Part shown: positions 54,425 to 63,405 of the stretch, piece after piece | Layout: every line of letters starts with the position of its first letter | Position numbering within the stretch: the first letter of the stretch is position 1 | Assembly (NCBI RefSeq): GCF_017901175.1 | Contig: NZ_CP072793.1 | Location: 3,348,001-3,412,000 of the forward strand | Reading direction: 5' to 3' | DNA length: 64,000 bases | Origin: Thiothrix unzii | Lineage (GTDB): Bacteria; Pseudomonadota; Gammaproteobacteria; Thiotrichales; Thiotrichaceae | Translations under genes and position numbers: made by a program | Notes under the pieces: model-generated | Databases searched by the model: none | The model's input: the letters and a program-made list of their open reading frames with translations, nothing else | Told to the model about the DNA's origin: nothing

Positions 54425-56170
54425 TTATGCCAAGCCTTCGTTGCCATCCACGTTTTTGAGTTTCGGCGTGTTCAGCTCGATCTTGCCAATGGTCTTTTTG
54501 TCGCGCAGGTAATCGGCGACCACTTCCCAGATTTGCTTGTTCTTCGGCACTTCTTCCTGCACGCTTGCCCAACCTGCCACGGGGTAGGTTTTCTTTGCAT
54601 CCAAGGGTTTGCCATCCAGCATCATGTCGGATACCCGTTCGCCCATTTTAGCGGTCGGGTCAAACGTGAATTTCAAACCGCCGACGCGCACCATGTCACC
54701 ACCTTGTTGGTAGTAAGGGTCAGCGTTGAACAGGTTATCCGCCACGTCTTCGAGGATGTTCTTGACAGTTTCGCCGGTCATTTCGTTACGTGTGACCGTG
54801 CCGTAAGTGATTGCGGTTTGGTCAGCAACGTGTTCAAACGTGATTGGCTGCCCCGGCAGTACGCTTGTGCCCCAACGGAAGCCCGGTGAAAACGCCATCG
54901 GCGCATCCAGCTCTTGCATCAGCGCGTCGCAGATCAACTGGTCAAATGTACCGTTGAAGTTGCCACGGCGGTACAATACGTCGTCGCACACCGCGAGTTC
55001 TTCCGCCAATTCTTTCTTGTACGGTTCACGGATTTTGTCGATGAGGGTTTGCATGTCCTTGTTGGCTTCCAACAAGTTGGAGAAGACCGGCAGCAATTTG
55101 TAACGGAAATCCGCCACTTTGCCGTCTTTCACATCCAGATCGAGCACACCGAGGAATTTGCCGTTGGAACCTGCGTTTGTGACCAGCGTTTTACCGCCTG
55201 CATTTTCAACAACCACCGGTTGGAATACGCCATCGTGCGTATGACCGCCCATGATCGCGTCAATGCCGGTGACTTTGCTGGCCATTTTCAGGTCAACGTC
55301 CATGCCGTTGTGCGACAGCATAATGACGACTTTCGCGCCTTTGCTACGCGCATCGTCAACCGCTTGCTGCATGTCGTCGTCACGGATACCGAAGCTCCAG
55401 TCTGCGACCATGTGTTTGGGGTTGGCAACTGGCACATACGGGAACGCCTGCCCAATAATCGCTACCGGCACGCCGTTGATTTCTTTGATCACGAACGGTT
55501 CAAATACGCGCTCATCAAAGTCGTTGCTGAAAACGTTTTGTGCGACAAAATCAATTTTGCCCGCGAAATCTTTCTCGACGATTTCTTTAACGCGATCCGC
55601 GCCGAAGGTCATTTCCCAGTGCGGAGTCATTACGTCTACGCCGAGAGCAAGCTGTGCGTCTACCATGTCTTGCGCGTTGGTTTTCAACGCTGTCCACGAA
55701 CCTTGCCAAGTATCACCGCCGTCCAGCAGCAATGAACCTGGGCGTTGCGCACGTACTTGGTCAACCAAGGTTTTCAGGTGGGCAAACCCGCCGACTTTGC
55801 CGTATTTTTTCGCGGCTTCAACGTAATCAATGTAGGTGAAAGCGTGCGCATCCATCGTACCGGCTCCGATGCCGTACTTTTTCAGGAAGTGTTCGCCGAC
55901 TAAGTGTGGCACTGCGCCTTTCATGCTGCCGATACCCAAGTTGACGTTCGGCTCGCGGAAATAAATCGGCAATAATTGCGCGTGGCAGTCGGTGTAATGC
56001 ATCAACGATACATTGCCGAAGGCGGGCAGTTCATACGGGTTGCTGGGGGCTTTGACAGCGGTTTTGTCGCCTTCTTTACTGGCATCTGCTGCAAAAGCGT
56101 TATTCAGGCTGAAACCGGCAACGCTGGCAGCGGCCAACATTTGCATAAATTCACGACGGGTTAAACTCAC
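54425..56170 (-). CDS. soxB: Thiosulfohydrolase SoxB
   Basis: A 581-residue periplasmic dimanganese enzyme that hydrolyses the sulfate group from SoxY-bound thiosulfate. The start is GTG 56170, preceded by GAGGAGAG; it gives a twin-arginine signal (LTRREFMQMLAAA), the usual route for SoxB. The 5'-nucleotidase-like metal motifs are LMHYTDCHAQLL, LLDGGDTWQGSW, MLSHNGMDVD and GGHTHDG. The C-terminal domain has FDQLICDALMQEL and a YGTVTRNEMTGE block. The gene is about 4.5 kb from the other sox genes and divergent from an ECF sigma factor gene. Terminator at 54344-54372. Confidence 0.96.
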   Translation of the reverse strand: MSLTRREFMQMLAAASVAGFSLNNAFAADASKEGDKTAVKAPSNPYELPAFGNVSLMHYTDCHAQLLPIYFREPNVNLGIGSMKGAVPHLVGEHFLKKYGIGAGTMDAHAFTYIDYVEAAKKYGKVGGFAHLKTLVDQVRAQRPGSLLLDGGDTWQGSWTALKTNAQDMVDAQLALGVDVMTPHWEMTFGADRVKEIVEKDFAGKIDFVAQNVFSNDFDERVFEPFVIKEINGVPVAIIGQAFPYVPVANPKHMVADWSFGIRDDDMQQAVDDARSKGAKVVIMLSHNGMDVDLKMASKVTGIDAIMGGHTHDGVFQPVVVENAGGKTLVTNAGSNGKFLGVLDLDVKDGKVADFRYKLLPVFSNLLEANKDMQTLIDKIREPYKKELAEELAVCDDVLYRRGNFNGTFDQLICDALMQELDAPMAFSPGFRWGTSVLPGQPITFEHVADQTAITYGTVTRNEMTGETVKNILEDVADNLFNADPYYQQGGDMVRVGGLKFTFDPTAKMGERVSDMMLDGKPLDAKKTYPVAGWASVQEEVPKNKQIWEVVADYLRDKKTIGKIELNTPKLKNVDGNEGLA

Positions 56171-56234
56171 GTTTTCTCTCCTCAAACGGGCTGAAGTTAT
56201 TCTAGCTACAGGGGTAGTGACGGGGTGCAGGTGA

Positions 56235-56261
56235 AAATATTCCATCTTTTTTGGAATATTT
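56235..56261. promoter_or_regulatory. Inverted repeat between soxB and the ECF sigma gene
   Basis: AAATATTCCA (56235-56244) and TGGAATATTT (56252-56261) form a perfect 10-bp inverted repeat with a 7-nt spacer, in the 146-nt divergent gap soxB/sigma factor. It could be an operator for either gene, or a hairpin in the leader. It lies 65 nt before the soxB GTG and 56 nt before the sigma ATG. Confidence 0.5.
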
Positions 56262-56316
56262 CGTCAATTTTCTGCATCATGTGCATTAGAACCGCTAAGA
56301 GAAACTTATAAACCAC

Positions 56317-56856
56317 ATGTTTAGTCAGTATTTTCGTTTTAACCGTCTCGACCAGCAGTTGTCGGAACACCGCGCCAAGCTGCATCGCATGGCAGTGGCA
56401 TGGTGTGGCGATAGCGCGTTAGCCGACGATCTGGTGCAAGACACCCTTGCAAAAGCCCTAGAAAAACAAGAACAACTGAAAGATGAAGCGCGTTTAGGTG
56501 CGTGGCTGTACAAAATCCTCCACAACTGCTGGATGGAGCATTTGCGCACCCAAAAGCCGACGCTGGACATCGACGACATGGAGCTAACCTGTACGGATTG
56601 CCCCGAAAAACACTTCGCCGATGATCAATTGGTCACGCAAGTGCGTACTGCTGTGGAATCGCTTCCGGTGAATCAATGCCAAGTGATGACGCTGGTGGAC
56701 TTGGAAGGGTGCAGCTACGAACAAGTTGCCGCGATCCTCGATATTCCGGTAGGAACGGTGATGAGCCGCCTCAGTCGCGCCCGCGAAACCATGAAAAAAC
56801 GCCTGCAAGGTATCCGTCAAACTGACAACGTTCACTATTTACGGAGAGTGAAATGA
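56317..56856 (+). CDS. ECF-type sigma-70 family RNA polymerase sigma factor
   Basis: A 179-residue ECF sigma factor. Region 2 spans about residues 18-80 (ADDLVQDTLAKAL and GAWLYKILHNCWMEHLR); region 4 spans about 106-165 (VESLPVNQCQVMTLVDLEGCSYEQVAAILD and IPVGTVMSRLSRARETMKKRL). A Cys-containing linker (CTDCPEKH) joins them, rather than a long region 3. It should direct RNA polymerase to stress or signal genes when released by its anti-sigma partner, encoded immediately after by an ATGA overlap. It is divergent from soxB. Confidence 0.92.
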   Translation: MFSQYFRFNRLDQQLSEHRAKLHRMAVAWCGDSALADDLVQDTLAKALEKQEQLKDEARLGAWLYKILHNCWMEHLRTQKPTLDIDDMELTCTDCPEKHFADDQLVTQVRTAVESLPVNQCQVMTLVDLEGCSYEQVAAILDIPVGTVMSRLSRARETMKKRLQGIRQTDNVHYLRRVK

Positions 56857-57548
56857 ATCCCGATCAGCTAACCATCCACGATCGTCTGCACGCATTGGCA
56901 GATGGGCAATTGGATGCTGAACAAACCCGTTACGTGTTAGCTCAAGTGGAAACTGACCTTGAGCTGCAAAAAGAATTGTGTGAAATCCAGCGCATCAAAC
57001 ATCTGGTTAAATCGGCTTACCCCTTACCCGCTTTGACCCGTCAGCCCGTGCGTCGCACGCAGGTATGGCAACAAGCGGCGATGTACTTATTGGTGTTCGG
57101 CCTGATCTTTCTTGCTGGCGCAGGCAGCAGCCACTACGCCCCGAAATTGTGGCAACCTGAAGGTTTGACACTAGAAAATGCGGCAGCATACGACGACCGT
57201 TTCATCGTGTTTCTGGACTCACATGAGCCTGCCAAACTGGAAAAAGCCTTGGTGAAAGCCGAAAATCTAGCGCAACAAGTCGCTCCTAAGGACGGCAGTG
57301 TTTACGTCGTTACCAGTGCGGAAGGCATTGATTTATTGCGCCTTGGTACGACCCGGCACGAAGGGCGTATTTTGCAAATGAGCGAACAATACCCGCACCT
57401 GAAATTTGTAGCGTGCAGCAATACGCTGTATTCCTTCAAACAACGTAACGAATTGGTCGAACTGGTCAATGACACCGAAGTTGCCCCATCCGCCGTGGAA
57501 TTTGTGGTAAACCACATGCGCGATGGGTGGCGTTATATTGCGATTTGA
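56853..57548 (+). CDS. Anti-sigma factor with periplasmic DsrE-like domain
   Basis: A 231-residue single-pass protein. Residues 1-56 form a helical anti-sigma-type domain (DRLHALADGQLDAEQTR), without the HxxxCxxC zinc site. A transmembrane helix lies at about 76-93 (AMYLLVFGLIFLAG). Residues 110-231 resemble the DsrE/F sulfur-trafficking fold: DRFIVFLDSHEPAKLEKAL, EGIDLLRLG, then Cys188 in KFVACSNTL, and VAPSAVEFV...GWRYI at the end. The DsrE-like protein at 59070-59645 shows the same blocks. By context it senses a periplasmic sulfur compound or redox signal and holds the ECF factor until then. That role is inference; the domain match is by motif. Confidence 0.72.
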   Translation: MNPDQLTIHDRLHALADGQLDAEQTRYVLAQVETDLELQKELCEIQRIKHLVKSAYPLPALTRQPVRRTQVWQQAAMYLLVFGLIFLAGAGSSHYAPKLWQPEGLTLENAAAYDDRFIVFLDSHEPAKLEKALVKAENLAQQVAPKDGSVYVVTSAEGIDLLRLGTTRHEGRILQMSEQYPHLKFVACSNTLYSFKQRNELVELVNDTEVAPSAVEFVVNHMRDGWRYIAI

Positions 57549-57967
57549 ATAGACTGCATTCCCAGCATTTTGGCGGCTAAGTTCAGACGTTTGTCGAAAC
57601 AAGCAAACAATAGCGGTAATGGCGTTTGTTGCTGCAAATGCCGTGCTGCTGCGAGATGCACGCTGTCATAGGCACGGAGGGAAAAGGCTTCCGCCAATTC
57701 TGCGGCACTTTGCAGTAAGCTCAGGTCAGTTTCGACTTGCAAATAATCGACCCAATCCTCTGCGAATGCTTGTTTTAAGGCTTCAAAGGTGGGCGTGTCC
57801 ACATCATCTTCACGGTGACGGCGTGCTAATGCTGCATGAAATTCAACAAAGGCAATTTGGTGCGAGGCGATAACGTCCGCTTGCTGTTGAAGTTCGTTAA
57901 CCACATCAGAATAGGCTTCCTGCACATACAACTTCACGAGGGCGGAAGTGTCCAGATAGAGCAGCAT
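57533..57967 (-). CDS. VapC-like PIN-domain ribonuclease toxin
   Basis: A 144-residue PIN-domain protein. The acidic residues are in place: YLDTSALVKLYV (Asp6), VEFHAAL (Glu near 43), RAYDSVHLAAA (Asp near 99) and CFDKRL (Asp near 118). It should cleave RNA and stop growth unless bound by the upstream antitoxin. Its ATG overlaps the antitoxin stop by one base (TAATG). Its 3' end overlaps the convergent anti-sigma gene by 16 nt. Confidence 0.88.
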   Translation of the reverse strand: MLLYLDTSALVKLYVQEAYSDVVNELQQQADVIASHQIAFVEFHAALARRHREDDVDTPTFEALKQAFAEDWVDYLQVETDLSLLQSAAELAEAFSLRAYDSVHLAAARHLQQQTPLPLLFACFDKRLNLAAKMLGMQSIQIAI

Positions 57968-58221
57968 TAGCGCATTTCCAACACAGTATCGGCAAGGGAT
58001 TTGCCGCGTAATGTGGGGCGTGGTCGATTCAGATTGGGTTTTTTACCCAGCCAATGCACATTGGGAATATTGCCCAGCAATGTTTGAGAAGCAGGAGCGG
58101 GGACCGAGATGAGACGTGCTACCACCTGTTTGTAGGAAGTCAGCCATACGGTATGCCCCGCCTGCGCTTGTCGGATGTAATGGGAGGGGTTTACTTTTAG
58201 TTCACGGATAGAGATTTGCAT
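57967..58221 (-). CDS. Phd/YefM-type antitoxin
   Basis: An 84-residue antitoxin: MQISIRELKVNPSHYIRQAQAG and TVWLTSYKQVVARLI form the Phd/YefM fold, and the C-terminal half is a charged, Pro/Leu-rich tail that wraps the toxin. It should repress its own operon and neutralise the PIN toxin next to it. It sits alone between the sox-linked DUF4395 gene and the anti-sigma gene. Confidence 0.87.
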   Translation of the reverse strand: MQISIRELKVNPSHYIRQAQAGHTVWLTSYKQVVARLISVPAPASQTLLGNIPNVHWLGKKPNLNRPRPTLRGKSLADTVLEMR

Positions 58222-58278: not shown

Positions 58279-59001
58279 CTAGAGCTTTTTACTGGTGGAC
58301 TCACCCCAATCCAAATTGTTGCAAGCCTCGCACTCTTCTTTTAGCACGCCCATCCAGACTAACAAGGAGTGCACTTTGCAACCCGCGCAGAAACCCAATA
58401 CAGTTTCCATCCACATAAATCCAAAACAGACCCACACCATCACCAGTGGAATCCAGGACGGCATGTAGTTGTAGGTTTCAGGAAGTATTTCGCTGCCCGC
58501 AACGGCATTGACCCAGCCCGCGAAGATTTCGGGGTTAAAGAAAATCAAACAGGTGATGATAAAACTTGCGCCAATCGACCAAGCAAAACGTTTGGGCAAT
58601 AACGGCTTCCACACCGGACGTAGATTTTTAGCTAGAAAGCTGCTGAGCAAAATGGTGGGGGAAAGCCGTGAAGTGCTTACAAACATGCCGGAAATCATTT
58701 CAAACAGCGCGTAAAGCAGCACCAACGTTTGTGTGCTGTAGTCAAAGGTGCGCTTGATCGCTTCGACATTATACAAAATGTGTCCATCAAAATCGGTTTC
58801 GAGCGTGTCGGTAATTACCGCGCCCGTGATTACCCAATCTGAACCGAAGATGGCATCAAACAGCGTGAACGCCATGTAGATGGGAATCGCAAGCAATAGC
58901 CCCGCGCGGATGCGCACAGCGGTGTCGTTAATGTAGGGGCTGACTTCGTTGCGGTCGCGAAACCACAGATCCTTGCAGCAAGTGATGATCCAATTGACCA
59001 T
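58279..59001 (-). CDS. DUF4395 family membrane protein
   Basis: A 240-residue protein with several hydrophobic helices (about residues 30-50, 92-112, 140-160 and 185-210) and, near the C-terminus, the CAGCKVHSLL motif plus CEACNN. Paired cysteines at the membrane face are the mark of DUF4395, a family often found beside sulfur-transfer and rhodanese genes. Its role is not established. It lies 68 nt after the DsrE-like gene, on the same strand, at the end of the sox accessory run. Confidence 0.8.
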   Translation of the reverse strand: MVNWIITCCKDLWFRDRNEVSPYINDTAVRIRAGLLLAIPIYMAFTLFDAIFGSDWVITGAVITDTLETDFDGHILYNVEAIKRTFDYSTQTLVLLYALFEMISGMFVSTSRLSPTILLSSFLAKNLRPVWKPLLPKRFAWSIGASFIITCLIFFNPEIFAGWVNAVAGSEILPETYNYMPSWIPLVMVWVCFGFMWMETVLGFCAGCKVHSLLVWMGVLKEECEACNNLDWGESTSKKL

Positions 59002-59069: not shown

Positions 59070-59645
59070 TTACGGCTTCAGTAACTGATAGCCTTGCGAT
59101 TGCAAACGGCCTGCTTCCGCTACGCCAGAGGGAATCACGTCTTCCGGTTTGGCATCGTACAAGTCAGCAAACTTGATTTTGCGCCCGGTCAAGGTGTTGT
59201 AGCAGATTTGGAATTTCACGCCTTTTTCTTTCAATTCCGCGATTTTAGCGGGCAATTTAGAATCAGCATTCATTTCAACCTGCTTGGCGGTAGTCAGCAA
59301 GCCTAAACCATCGCCATTCATCACGACAATTGCGTCGGTTTTCTTGCCGGTTTGCTCCAGTGCTTTGATGTAATTACTGACATTGCCCAGCACGCCGAGG
59401 TATTTCTTCTCGTCACCTTCCATTGTGACGTGAACTACCACTTTTTCAGCTCCGGCGTAATAGTCGTCAGCGACTTTGGGCGCAGGCACACCGGGGTCAA
59501 ACTTGGCTTCGGCGGGTTTGGCATCCGCAGCCGGAGCAGCGGCGGCTTCTGCTTTCGGTTCAGCCGGTTTGGCATCGTCAGCGATTGCAAGACCAGCAAC
59601 GCTGCTGGCAGTCATCAATAAACCCAGTATGATTGGTTTTAACAT
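59070..59645 (-). CDS. Periplasmic DsrE-family protein
   Basis: A 191-residue exported DsrE-family protein. Residues 1-22 are a signal peptide (ending IADDA); a low-complexity Ala/Lys/Pro/Glu linker follows to about 48. The DsrE-like core has VVVHVTMEGDEKKYLGVLGN, VVMNGDGLGLLT, Cys148 in KFQICYNTL and VIPSGVAEAGRLQSQGYQLL. The single conserved cysteine suggests persulfide carriage in the periplasm. It is 49 nt after the SoxH-like gene. The anti-sigma factor at 56853-57548 carries the same domain. Confidence 0.85.
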   Translation of the reverse strand: MLKPIILGLLMTASSVAGLAIADDAKPAEPKAEAAAAPAADAKPAEAKFDPGVPAPKVADDYYAGAEKVVVHVTMEGDEKKYLGVLGNVSNYIKALEQTGKKTDAIVVMNGDGLGLLTTAKQVEMNADSKLPAKIAELKEKGVKFQICYNTLTGRKIKFADLYDAKPEDVIPSGVAEAGRLQSQGYQLLKP

Positions 59646-59694: not shown

Positions 59695-60645
59695 TTATTG
59701 CATTCCTTCCTGTTCCAGCGACAGGTATACCTGATAAGCATTGCGGCGGTTAGCTTCTTCAAATGCAGGCAGGTGGATGAAATCGCCCCAGTCGGTGGCG
59801 GCATAAGCTTCGTCAAACGGGGTCATGTCTTCGACGGCTTTGCCCATTGTTTCACGCAGGAATTCGATGTATTGCACCGTGGTTTTAATCACTTCCTGCG
59901 GTTTTTTGGACATCGGGCCGTGACCGGGAACCATCGCAGTGAGCTTGCCTTGCGCCATGTCTTTTAAGCGTTCCAGCCAGATTTTGGTATTGGCATCGCC
60001 CACGAAAGGCACGCGCCCTTCAAAAATCAAATCACCAATTAGCAATACGCCATCCGGCTCGACCAGCACACTTTGGTCGCCATCAGAATGCGCTTTGCCG
60101 TTGAAAATGAGTTTGAGGGTGACACCGCCGAGAGTGATTTCTTCATTGCCATCGACATAACGGTCGGGTTTAACCAAGCGGGTGTCAGCATTGACCCACG
60201 GGGCAAGGTCTGCGCGACGCGAAGCCAGCAAGGTTTCGGCGTTTTCAGAATTGAGATATTCCTCAGCACCGGCAGGGGCGATGATTTCCGCGCCTAAGTC
60301 TTTGAATACTTGTAAGCCGTAAATATGGTCGGCGTGATAATGGCTGACAATCACCTTTTTCACCGGCTTGTCAGTCACTTTTTTGAGTTTTTGCAGGAAT
60401 AATTGCGCCAAGGCTGGCGTGCCAAGGGTGTCGAATAAAATTACGCCTTCGTCAGTGACAATCACCGCAGCGTTGGAAATGAAACCGTGGTTTTGGGTGG
60501 CAGCACCTGGTGCGCCTTGCACATAGTAAACGTGTTCGGAAACTTTGATCAGCTCCATCACGACGGGGGGCAGTTTGTCATCAGCATGGGCATTCAGCCC
60601 GATGGTTAAACAGAGAAGGGTAAAGAATGCGGCGATAACGCGCAT
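59695..60645 (-). CDS. SoxH-like periplasmic MBL-fold hydrolase
   Basis: A 316-residue exported metallo-beta-lactamase-fold protein. Signal peptide at residues 1-21 (ending NAHAD). The zinc site is SHYHADHIYG near residue 102 with AHSDGDQ near 185, LIGDLIFEG near 202 and VPGHGPMS near 240. This layout matches the SoxH/quinoprotein-relay type hydrolases found near sox genes. The substrate is unknown; thiol-ester or persulfide products have been suggested for relatives. It lies downstream of soxZ copy 1, separated by the palindromic repeat. Confidence 0.85.
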   Translation of the reverse strand: MRVIAAFFTLLCLTIGLNAHADDKLPPVVMELIKVSEHVYYVQGAPGAATQNHGFISNAAVIVTDEGVILFDTLGTPALAQLFLQKLKKVTDKPVKKVIVSHYHADHIYGLQVFKDLGAEIIAPAGAEEYLNSENAETLLASRRADLAPWVNADTRLVKPDRYVDGNEEITLGGVTLKLIFNGKAHSDGDQSVLVEPDGVLLIGDLIFEGRVPFVGDANTKIWLERLKDMAQGKLTAMVPGHGPMSKKPQEVIKTTVQYIEFLRETMGKAVEDMTPFDEAYAATDWGDFIHLPAFEEANRRNAYQVYLSLEQEGMQ

Positions 60646-60757: not shown

Positions 60758-61066
60758 TTACGCTACATCTGCTTCAGCAGAATCTTTCTCGCCTTTGTTG
60801 TCGGTCCAAGACAGCTTGATCTTGTCACCGGCTTTGCCTTTGTAGCTAAAAGCGAGGTACGGGTTTTTAGAAACGGAACCACCCCAGTTAGCGGTGAGGA
60901 CAGTTTTGTCACCAGCGGTCACGATGATTTCTTTAATGAAATGCGCCGGAACCAGTTCGCCAGTTTTCTTGTCCTTACGTTGCCCAGTTTCCATTGGGTG
61001 CGTCATCAGTGCCTTGACTTCGACGCTATCGCCTTCTGCTTTGGCTTTGAGTTTAATGCTAGACAT
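60758..61066 (-). CDS. soxZ: Sulfur-oxidation sulfur-carrier partner SoxZ, copy 1
   Basis: A 102-residue SoxZ. KVEVKALMTHPMETGQRKD-like sequence near residues 14-32 and VPAHFIKEIIV are the family blocks. It pairs with SoxY to form the carrier on which thiosulfate sulfur is processed. Protein identical to copy 2 at 62614-62922; the DNA differs within the repeat at one synonymous base (60971) and the last codons were changed (GTA GCG against GTC GCT). It starts 16 nt after soxY copy 1. Confidence 0.96.
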   Translation of the reverse strand: MSSIKLKAKAEGDSVEVKALMTHPMETGQRKDKKTGELVPAHFIKEIIVTAGDKTVLTANWGGSVSKNPYLAFSYKGKAGDKIKLSWTDNKGEKDSAEADVA

Positions 61067-61549
61067 GTGTGTTCTCCCCTAATTAACCGCCGCAGCCGCC
61101 GATGGTGACTTTGACTTCCTGTTTCGCTGAATAGGCTTTATCGCCTGCTTTGACTAAAGCCACTACGTTTGCGGTTTTGCCCATTTTGATACGGGTAGAC
61201 GCAGTAGGGTTAGCACCTTCACCGAGGATGAACGTTGCTGCCAGCGGGGTTGGGTTGCCATCTACCAGCAAGCTGATTTCTTTCACGTCAGCGATAGTGG
61301 TAGTCACTTCAACCGGTACAACCGCACCGTTTTCAGCGATTTCAGGGGCTTTAATGGTAATGTCTTTCGACTCTTCCGGGGTAACAGCCATCGCTTTGAG
61401 TGCGTCGTCCATTGATTTTGCATCAAATGCACCGCCGCCTTCTGCCATAACCATGCTTGGAGTCAGCAAGCCTGCGCTGACCGCAAGACCAGCCGCACCG
61501 GCTGCCAGTGTGCCTTGCAAAAATGTTCTGCGTTTCATAATTCCTCTCT
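60765..61549. repeat. 785-bp direct repeat, soxYZ copy 1
   Basis: This segment and 62621-63405 are the same across 785 bp except at 60971/62827 (G against A). It includes all of soxY with its ribosome-binding site and all of soxZ except the last two codons and stop. Identity stops sharply at both ends. Recent duplication or gene conversion. Confidence 0.92.
61083..61538 (-). CDS. soxY: Sulfur-carrier protein SoxY, copy 1
   Basis: A 151-residue SoxY. Twin-arginine signal MKRRTFLQGTLAAG; Ig-like core; and the C-terminal GGCGG whose cysteine (residue 149) carries the sulfur substrate. Identical in protein and DNA to copy 2 (62939-63394). Its upstream region differs from copy 2, so it has its own promoter or reads on from the soxA terminator. 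Within it, 61644-61651 has AATATTCC, half of the repeat seen beside soxB. Confidence 0.96.
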   Translation of the reverse strand: MKRRTFLQGTLAAGAAGLAVSAGLLTPSMVMAEGGGAFDAKSMDDALKAMAVTPEESKDITIKAPEIAENGAVVPVEVTTTIADVKEISLLVDGNPTPLAATFILGEGANPTASTRIKMGKTANVVALVKAGDKAYSAKQEVKVTIGGCGG

Positions 61550-61690
61550 ACAACGTGTTGTCATACTTGCTGTGTTATCAGGGTTACATGATTTTTAGTG
61601 GCAACCGCTGACTCACTCAGGGTTAGATGCGGAAACGGTGAAGAATATTCCGTTTTTGTAAAAAATAGTTGGGTGGAAGTATTGCACAAT

Positions 61691-62613: not shown

Positions 62614-62922
62614 TTAAGCGACATCTGCTTCAGCAGAATCTTTCTCGCCTTTGTTGTCGGTCCAAGACAGCTTGATCTTGTCACCGGCTTTGCCTTTGTA
62701 GCTAAAAGCGAGGTACGGGTTTTTAGAAACGGAACCACCCCAGTTAGCGGTGAGGACAGTTTTGTCACCAGCGGTCACGATGATTTCTTTAATGAAATGC
62801 GCCGGAACCAGTTCGCCAGTTTTCTTATCCTTACGTTGCCCAGTTTCCATTGGGTGCGTCATCAGTGCCTTGACTTCGACGCTATCGCCTTCTGCTTTGG
62901 CTTTGAGTTTAATGCTAGACAT
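62614..62922 (-). CDS. soxZ: Sulfur-oxidation sulfur-carrier partner SoxZ, copy 2
   Basis: A 102-residue SoxZ identical in sequence to copy 1. It is the copy inside the soxX-soxY-soxZ-soxA unit, 16 nt after soxY copy 2 and 16 nt before soxA. It forms the heterodimer with SoxY that carries sulfur intermediates. Confidence 0.96.
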   Translation of the reverse strand: MSSIKLKAKAEGDSVEVKALMTHPMETGQRKDKKTGELVPAHFIKEIIVTAGDKTVLTANWGGSVSKNPYLAFSYKGKAGDKIKLSWTDNKGEKDSAEADVA

Positions 62923-63405
62923 GTGTGTTCTCCCCTAATTAACCGCCGCAGCCGCCGATGGTGACTTTGACTTCCTGTTTCGCTGAATAGGCTTTATCGC
63001 CTGCTTTGACTAAAGCCACTACGTTTGCGGTTTTGCCCATTTTGATACGGGTAGACGCAGTAGGGTTAGCACCTTCACCGAGGATGAACGTTGCTGCCAG
63101 CGGGGTTGGGTTGCCATCTACCAGCAAGCTGATTTCTTTCACGTCAGCGATAGTGGTAGTCACTTCAACCGGTACAACCGCACCGTTTTCAGCGATTTCA
63201 GGGGCTTTAATGGTAATGTCTTTCGACTCTTCCGGGGTAACAGCCATCGCTTTGAGTGCGTCGTCCATTGATTTTGCATCAAATGCACCGCCGCCTTCTG
63301 CCATAACCATGCTTGGAGTCAGCAAGCCTGCGCTGACCGCAAGACCAGCCGCACCGGCTGCCAGTGTGCCTTGCAAAAATGTTCTGCGTTTCATAATTCC
63401 TCTCT
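62621..63405. repeat. 785-bp direct repeat, soxYZ copy 2
   Basis: Partner of 60765-61549, offset 1856 bp, one mismatch. Copy 2 lies inside the canonical soxXYZA order, so copy 1 is probably the added one, though gene conversion in either direction would look the same. Confidence 0.92.
62939..63394 (-). CDS. soxY: Sulfur-carrier protein SoxY, copy 2
   Basis: A 151-residue SoxY identical to copy 1: twin-arginine signal MKRRTFLQGT and sulfur-binding GGCGG end. It lies 35 nt after soxX. It carries the thiosulfate-derived sulfur on its C-terminal cysteine through the SoxAX, SoxB cycle. Confidence 0.96.
   Translation of the reverse strand: MKRRTFLQGTLAAGAAGLAVSAGLLTPSMVMAEGGGAFDAKSMDDALKAMAVTPEESKDITIKAPEIAENGAVVPVEVTTTIADVKEISLLVDGNPTPLAATFILGEGANPTASTRIKMGKTANVVALVKAGDKAYSAKQEVKVTIGGCGG

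Follow-up and report, generated by a model that had tools for sequence, protein, structure and literature searches.

The window analysed here, a 64-kb stretch of the 3.72-Mb genome of Thiothrix unzii, contains what looks like an autoregulated ECF sigma system with a new sensor domain, which would control sox genes in this organism and, more often in its class, a periplasmic DsrE protein. The sigma gene is paired with that of an anti-sigma factor in which a domain of DsrE fold with a single cysteine follows a membrane helix, and conserved promoter-like sites of one pattern precede the sigma gene, soxB and a soxYZ gene run (Table 1). In the genus of the window the link from sigma factor to sox genes is highly probable. 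That the signal is sulfane sulfur is plausible, at slightly less than even chances.

Table 1. Features of the sigma/anti-sigma locus and its predicted targets (window coordinates)
Feature	Coordinates	Strand	Basis or remark
ECF sigma factor gene	56317..56856	+	179 aa, regions 2 and 4 only
Anti-sigma factor with C-terminal DsrE domain	56853..57548	+	231 aa
Anti-sigma-type N-terminal domain, residues 1-55, three helices, presumed cytoplasmic	56853..57017	+	matches of family members
Membrane helix, residues 75-93	57075..57131	+	best hydrophobic 19-mer
DsrE-fold domain, residues 114-231, presumed periplasmic	57192..57545	+	profile search, model, Foldseek
Cys188 codon, sole cysteine in presumed periplasmic part	57414..57416	+	93/93 aligned proteins
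Predicted ECF promoter, sigma operon, GGAATATT...GCATC	56253..56278	+	14/15 genomes of genus
Predicted ECF promoter, soxB, GGAATATT...CCGTC	56219..56243	-	15/15 genomes of genus
Predicted ECF promoter, second soxYZ gene run	61626..61651	-	88 nt before soxY; 11/11 loci holding this soxYZ
soxB, longest ORF, likely start GTG 56170	54425..56245	-	TIGR04486 4.9e-261
soxY, second copy, predicted target	61083..61538	-	named by eye
soxZ, second copy, predicted target	60758..61066	-	named by eye
SoxH-like metallo-beta-lactamase-fold hydrolase, presumably soxYZ operon	59695..60645	-	TIGR04559 1.9e-54 (under its cut-off); Lactamase_B 1e-25
Stand-alone, presumably periplasmic DsrE protein, presumably soxYZ operon	59070..59645	-	Pfam DsrE 1.1e-8; signal-peptide-like start by eye
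DUF4395 protein, presumably soxYZ operon	58279..59001	-	PF14340 2.6e-13

The sigma protein matches Pfam Sigma70_r2 (5.4e-13, residues 17-80) and Sigma70_r4_2 (1.6e-15, residues 108-159). Regions 1 and 3 are absent, as befits an ECF factor, and among the NCBIfam matches listed the only cut-off reached is that of the TIGR02937 superfamily. The sigma and anti-sigma ORFs overlap by 4 nt. A same-strand sigma homologue stands beside 92 of 93 full-length anti-sigma ORFs, the lone exception (L136) beginning at a contig end. These ORFs were collected from 91 loci: 79 stretches around full-length matches in the class, one stretch of G008 and 11 named loci (a collection of 11 relatives, six of them named Thiothrix). 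Removal of one duplicate (L034, identical to L144) and addition of the window protein gave the aligned set of 93. Distance matrices of sigma and anti-sigma from 81 loci are correlated (r = 0.47 for the anti-sigma domain and 0.66 for the DsrE domain, with 0 of 1000 permutations as high), a correlation that shared ancestry alone would give. The anti-sigma factor presumably binds and holds the sigma factor.

The initial annotation had described such a pair, with an anti-sigma protein composed of an N-terminal helical domain, one membrane helix at about residues 76-93 and a C-terminal DsrE-type domain including Cys188 in the segment KFVACSNTL. Each of these elements stood up to analysis. Taken alone, the window protein falls short of every Pfam cut-off, its best match being zf-HC2 at E 0.2, and is assigned to no NCBIfam family; Pfam PF02635 does not match it up to E 1. 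The N-terminal anti-sigma domain is recognised in members of its family but not in the window protein by itself: searched singly at E<=0.01, 16 of 78 members match zf-HC2, 3 match RseA_N and 17 the NCBIfam anti-sigma family NF052375, while 24 match Pfam DsrE. The N-terminal part of a profile built from the 78 members detects MucA (0.19) and RseA (0.24) in a list of 15, matches that count for little because evidently unrelated proteins of the same list score better, down to 0.0025. The best hydrophobic 19-mer scores 1.82 in the window protein; scores are at least 1.6 in 74 of the 93 aligned proteins and 1.14-1.6 in the others, which by hydrophobicity corresponds to a single membrane helix. A modelled helix covers residues 71-88 at low confidence. 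With one helix and a cytoplasmic sigma factor, the DsrE domain would be periplasmic.

The C-terminal domain has the DsrE fold. A phmmer comparison of the window protein with 1l1s (MTH1491) gives 1.8e-4, and the 78-member profile reaches 3.1e-23 with the same structure over the C-terminal half and 1.5e-12 with 2pd2. In a second AlphaFold model, made from 78 sequences (mean pLDDT 84.5, pTM 0.54), the residue blocks 11-50 and 121-231 have a pLDDT of at least 90, residues 1-55 range from 79 to 97 by block of 10, and the helix and linker are low. Foldseek finds eight PDB matches to this model at E<=0.001, the best being 1l1s (TM 0.88, 1.9 A). They include five chains titled DsrE-type or DsrEFH (2hy5_A at 3.4e-4), the design 8uja, which is described as DsrE-like and resembles 2pd2, and 1l1s and 2pd2 themselves, which carry only hypothetical-protein titles and which we take to have the DsrE fold. 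A first model from 20 sequences (pLDDT 72) gave five matches, from the same group.

Cys188 lies within FVACSNTL, aligned with FCACSNTL of MTH1491. It is invariant in the alignment (93/93), as is Trp226, and Asp17 is found in 92 of 93 proteins. From residue 101 on, every one of the 93 contains exactly one cysteine, Cys188. An internal disulfide within the periplasmic part is therefore unlikely and was discarded as a candidate; the single cysteine speaks for a persulfide, a sulfenate, a mixed disulfide or a partner protein. ZAS (zinc) anti-sigma factors are marked by an HxxxCxxC zinc motif, which on reading is absent from the window protein; alignment position 43 is a cysteine in only 65 of the 93. 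The stand-alone DsrE protein at 59070-59645, in which the segment KFQICYNTL had been noted as the counterpart of that around Cys188, is indeed assigned to DsrE by Pfam, with an E value of only 0.01 in a single direct comparison with the anti-sigma factor. A second stand-alone DsrE (L167:4066-4548), elsewhere in the genome, has a signal-peptide-like start and FTACGNTL. The anti-sigma profile detects it at 2.2e-13, the protein at 59070 not being among the matches listed, and its stretch lacks the strict promoter motif defined below.

ECF-type promoters have a GGAAY -35 element and a spacer of about 16-17 nt. In an alignment of the soxB-sigma gap from 16 genomes (15 of the genus and one other), a palindrome, AAATATTCCA...TGGAATATTT in the window, is little changed elsewhere. 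CRTC is kept towards sigma and CCGTC towards soxB, with CATC in L017, where there is no soxB. This arrangement was read as two divergent ECF promoters with -35 boxes facing each other. At 56219-56278 of the window these boxes form a 10-nt perfect palindrome around a 7-nt centre, which may permit mutual exclusion of the two promoters or the binding of another protein. The ATG of the longest soxB ORF (56245) is upstream of the -10 box of the predicted soxB promoter; the GTG at 56170, preceded by GAGGAGAG, is therefore the more likely start.

The window has three matches to the strict pattern GGAATATT-N13-15-CRTC, where 0.02 would be expected; none of 100 shuffles contains three. The sites precede the sigma gene, soxB and the soxY of the soxYZ-MBL-dsrE-DUF4395 gene run, and are probably all read by this sigma factor. 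In the 15 genomes of the genus, that of the window included, a strict site is found before soxB in 15, before the sigma gene in 14 (that of L177 misses the pattern by one nucleotide of spacing) and before soxY in all 11 loci with this soxYZ in the stretch; with two other sites, 42 were counted. Spacers of these sites differ between genomes, while in column counts the boxes are fixed by construction, the sites having been picked by pattern. Since the pattern was read from the sigma-soxB gap, the sigma and soxB counts are partly circular, those for soxY and dsrE less so. No strict site was found before soxX in the genomes of the genus, and soxXYZA may thus be controlled otherwise.

The whole genome of T. 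unzii contains six strict sites, three of them within 5.5 kb at this locus, with none for the reversed control. Genus-wide, there are 3-12 sites per genome and 0-3 in reversed controls; G050, which belongs to the genus and lacks the pair, has three of each. Two further strict sites of the genome recur in several others, the GGAATATTGGTRTG... one also in G050, and were rejected as promoters because spacers so little changed suggest conserved coding sequence. The additional sites of L174 and L175, which have nothing convincing downstream, were also rejected. One strict match (L166:3897-3921) precedes the gene of an AAA ATPase, next to which comes a sulfur-transport gene (PF04143); the match was not seen again in the genus-wide list.

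Negative controls were taken from 36 genomes of the order that have SoxB and no full-length anti-sigma factor. Neither the strict pattern nor the loose one given below occurs in any of 20 soxB stretches (109,645 bases, that of G050 included), some of whose soxB ORFs are cut by the stretch end, with the upstream side inside. Five genomes of the family carry the pair away from soxB (G008, G012, G014, G017 and G018) and none has a site before soxB; in G018 a strict match was seen within soxB itself, on the opposite strand. The sox link is accordingly limited to the genus to which the window belongs; no such link is claimed for other members of the family.

When pairs of a 5-mer and a 4-mer separated by 14-19 nt were counted in 81 sigma upstream regions from across the class with no preset pattern, GGAAT...CGTC came first (49 of 81), against 7 for the best pair after one letter shuffle. 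A loose pattern, GGAATA-N15-17-CRTC (N15-16 before CGTC), precedes the sigma gene at 64 of 81 class loci and is missing at 17. It also precedes 18 of 25 divergent dsrE genes (position -2; seven are without it) and 1 of 14 same-strand dsrE genes (position +1), as expected if the latter are co-transcribed; across all 54 dsrE listings there are 25. The divergent SoxB-like nucleotidase genes (-2) have it in three of three cases (three of five over all positions). It is rare before porin-like genes (2 of 33) and before other genes (3 of 450). The reversed control gives 0 in each set, and 4 sites against 117 over 896,574 bases. For a whole-genome regulon the loose pattern is uninformative, with 56 sites against 23 reversed controls in the T. 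unzii genome.

The proposal that the sigma factor controls sox genes is supported for the genus by the conserved sites and the negative control, and proves too narrow beyond it. Across the class the architecture turns up repeatedly, with a stand-alone DsrE gene as its neighbour more often than sox genes. The same domain order next to sox genes does exist elsewhere: L093 and L106 have soxXYZAB after the sigma/anti-sigma pair on the same strand, and L134 has sox genes nearby. At most class loci, however, the pair has other neighbours, which together with the absence of soxB sites in the five family genomes rules out a sox-only device. A SoxB/nucleotidase cluster is present at 12 loci, five of them outside the named ones. 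A further cluster is found at 34 loci, mostly as the third gene upstream and in the same divergent orientation as the upstream dsrE; one of three members scanned matches Porin_O_P. At L092 and L099, two sigma/anti-sigma pairs stand in tandem, flanked by two stand-alone dsrE genes of different branches, one at each end.

We infer the following scheme of what is sensed, which way the signal runs and how a feedback loop could arise; as a whole it has in our estimate an even chance of being right. The anti-sigma factor, through a periplasmic domain of sulfur-carrier type with one invariant cysteine, would keep the ECF sigma factor at the inner membrane. On oxidation of thiosulfate or sulfide, sulfane sulfur would accumulate in the periplasm and be taken up by Cys188, either without an intermediary or by transfer from SoxYZ, the periplasmic DsrE protein or another donor. 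A change in shape or assembly of the DsrE domain would then set the sigma factor free to transcribe its own operon, soxB and the soxYZ-MBL-dsrE-DUF4395 run from GGAATATT-N13-15-CRTC promoters. The induced DsrE protein and SoxYZ would drain the sulfur and so close the loop. Extended to the class, this becomes a family of switches in which a sulfur-carrier fold was recruited once as a periplasmic sulfane-sulfur receptor, Cys188 being loaded by the organism's own periplasmic DsrE or SoxYZ, a reading that we advance tentatively. If it is true, the carrier whose gene is turned on is kin of the sensor that does the switching.

Alternatively, the DsrE domain could serve for oligomerisation and bind a protein partner, either the stand-alone periplasmic DsrE or SoxYZ; the sigma factor would be freed when this partner is missing or loaded with sulfur, in a manner similar to the guarding of RseA by RseB. 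Apart from sigma genes, no neighbour of the pair is commoner than stand-alone dsrE: within six genes on either side, 48 of 92 neighbourhoods hold it, as 52 distinct genes in all. In 26 listings it is divergent and two genes upstream; in 15 it follows directly downstream in the same orientation. These genes are also predicted targets, as the divergent copies indicate, and 48 of the 52 encode one cysteine after residue 25. Such partner sensing is nevertheless rather unlikely, as 44 of the 92 neighbourhoods, some cut by contig ends, have no stand-alone dsrE cluster member within six genes.

Sensing of oxidants is a somewhat weaker candidate and in our view unlikely. Hypochlorite, peroxide or disulfide stress would oxidise Cys188 to a sulfenate or mixed disulfide, and sulfur genes would be one output among others. 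A single invariant cysteine would suit this reading, and a three-member neighbour cluster resembles di-haem cytochrome c peroxidase by eye. DsbD genes lie near four class loci, two of them with an upstream motif match; these matches may be due to chance, and DsbD was not retained as a target. Oxidant sensing sits poorly with a fold that is that of sulfur carriers, and with sox genes as the predicted targets in the window and as neighbours of the pair in L093, L106 and L134.

Single-span anti-sigma factors commonly give up their sigma factor through proteolysis, and the DsrE domain might be a passive remnant while something else triggers such regulated proteolysis; invariance of Cys188 and Trp226, against a mean column identity of 30% over the 78 family members, makes this very improbable. 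That the pair has nothing to do with sox control and the promoter matches arose by chance is scarcely credible: the pattern was drawn after the sigma-soxB gap alignment had been seen and the five family genomes have no soxB site, but shuffles, reversed controls, conservation throughout the genus including soxY and absence from the 20 soxB regions of relatives lacking the pair all oppose it.

Several known systems resemble the one proposed here in part. The N-terminal helical domain, the single membrane helix, the presumably periplasmic C-terminal part and the anti-sigma gene directly after that of sigma are as in RseA/MucA-type ECF anti-sigma factors. Unlike these, the C-terminal part here is a DsrE fold with one conserved cysteine, and similarity to the N-terminal RseA/MucA structures is at noise level, though a few members match Pfam RseA_N. 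The MTH1491/ST0148 branch (1l1s, 2pd2) and the DsrE of DsrEFH (2hy5) share the fold, MTH1491 also the cysteine segment, whereas here the domain follows an anti-sigma-type domain and a membrane helix in one fused protein.

A precedent for sulfur-oxidation control by an ECF sigma factor with an anti-sigma factor comes from Sinorhizobium meliloti, where, according to the part of the report available to us, ECF26 RpoE4/RpoE1 and their anti-sigma factors control the oxidation of sulfur compounds (sorT) and the system is autoregulated and activated with thiosulfate (PMC3511301). In that part, the anti-sigma factors are assigned to COG5662 with no mention of a DsrE sensor, and the target is a sulfite dehydrogenase, not soxB or soxYZ (PMC3511301). 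In Hyphomicrobium denitrificans, the accessible text describes SoxR and sHdrR as ArsR-type sulfane-sulfur repressors of sulfur-oxidation genes (sox in the case of SoxR), with SoxT1B as signal transducer for SoxR, carrying sulfur inward (PMC12423496). The control of sulfur-oxidation genes and the response to sulfane sulfur on cysteines are alike; those regulators, as described there, are repressors with two conserved cysteines, in contrast to a presumed periplasmic sensor with one (PMC12423496). By the same text, they receive sulfur only after membrane transport (PMC12423496), whereas here the sensor would stand where Sox chemistry happens. The initial annotation knew of no described example of a DsrE-domain anti-sigma factor, and none was found in the literature searched, subscription papers and preprints aside. 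A class-wide family with no description found there gains a candidate regulator, promoter and set of targets, and one candidate residue.

Within the order, the anti-sigma factor is matched in 22 of 63 genomes (15 of 16 of the genus), the matches in G002 and G045 being weak and partial. SoxB is present in 56 of the 63 and a full-length anti-sigma factor in about 20, so most genomes of the order do without it; G050 has soxB and no anti-sigma match. In the class, 94 of 369 genomes match, many over the DsrE part alone. A phylum sample gives 20 of 398, the full-length matches besides the window being two, both of the same class, and a plasmid collection queried with the L110 anti-sigma factor alone gives none. 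A quick tree places the DsrE domains of 93 anti-sigma factors and 54 stand-alone copies on opposite sides of one branch (SH-aLRT 97, from few columns and with stand-alone ORFs >220 aa left out), a split that fits a single fusion without proving one. Elsewhere in the phylum, open frames some 190-230 aa long (L147-L150 and L152) match the profile only from about residue 62-75 to 231. They perhaps represent another kind of membrane-bound DsrE protein, with a membrane helix and no anti-sigma domain.

Several other features of these loci are variable or repeated. Between the anti-sigma gene and DUF4395, at 57533-58221 of the window (L165) and also in L168, L179 and L181, there is a PIN/Phd-type toxin-antitoxin pair, which was not found in L169, L170 or L180 and is a polymorphic insertion. 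The two soxYZ copies of the window (60758-61538 and 62614-63394), which flank soxA, are identical at 778 of 781 nt, and two copies are found in other genomes of the genus as well, which suggests ongoing gene conversion. Finally, the 27-mer GGAATAGCCACGCATCTGCATGGCATC is identical at five places in G000 (C1:11004 and C2:1448185, 1917242, 1988172 and 2168155) and probably belongs to a repeated mobile element.
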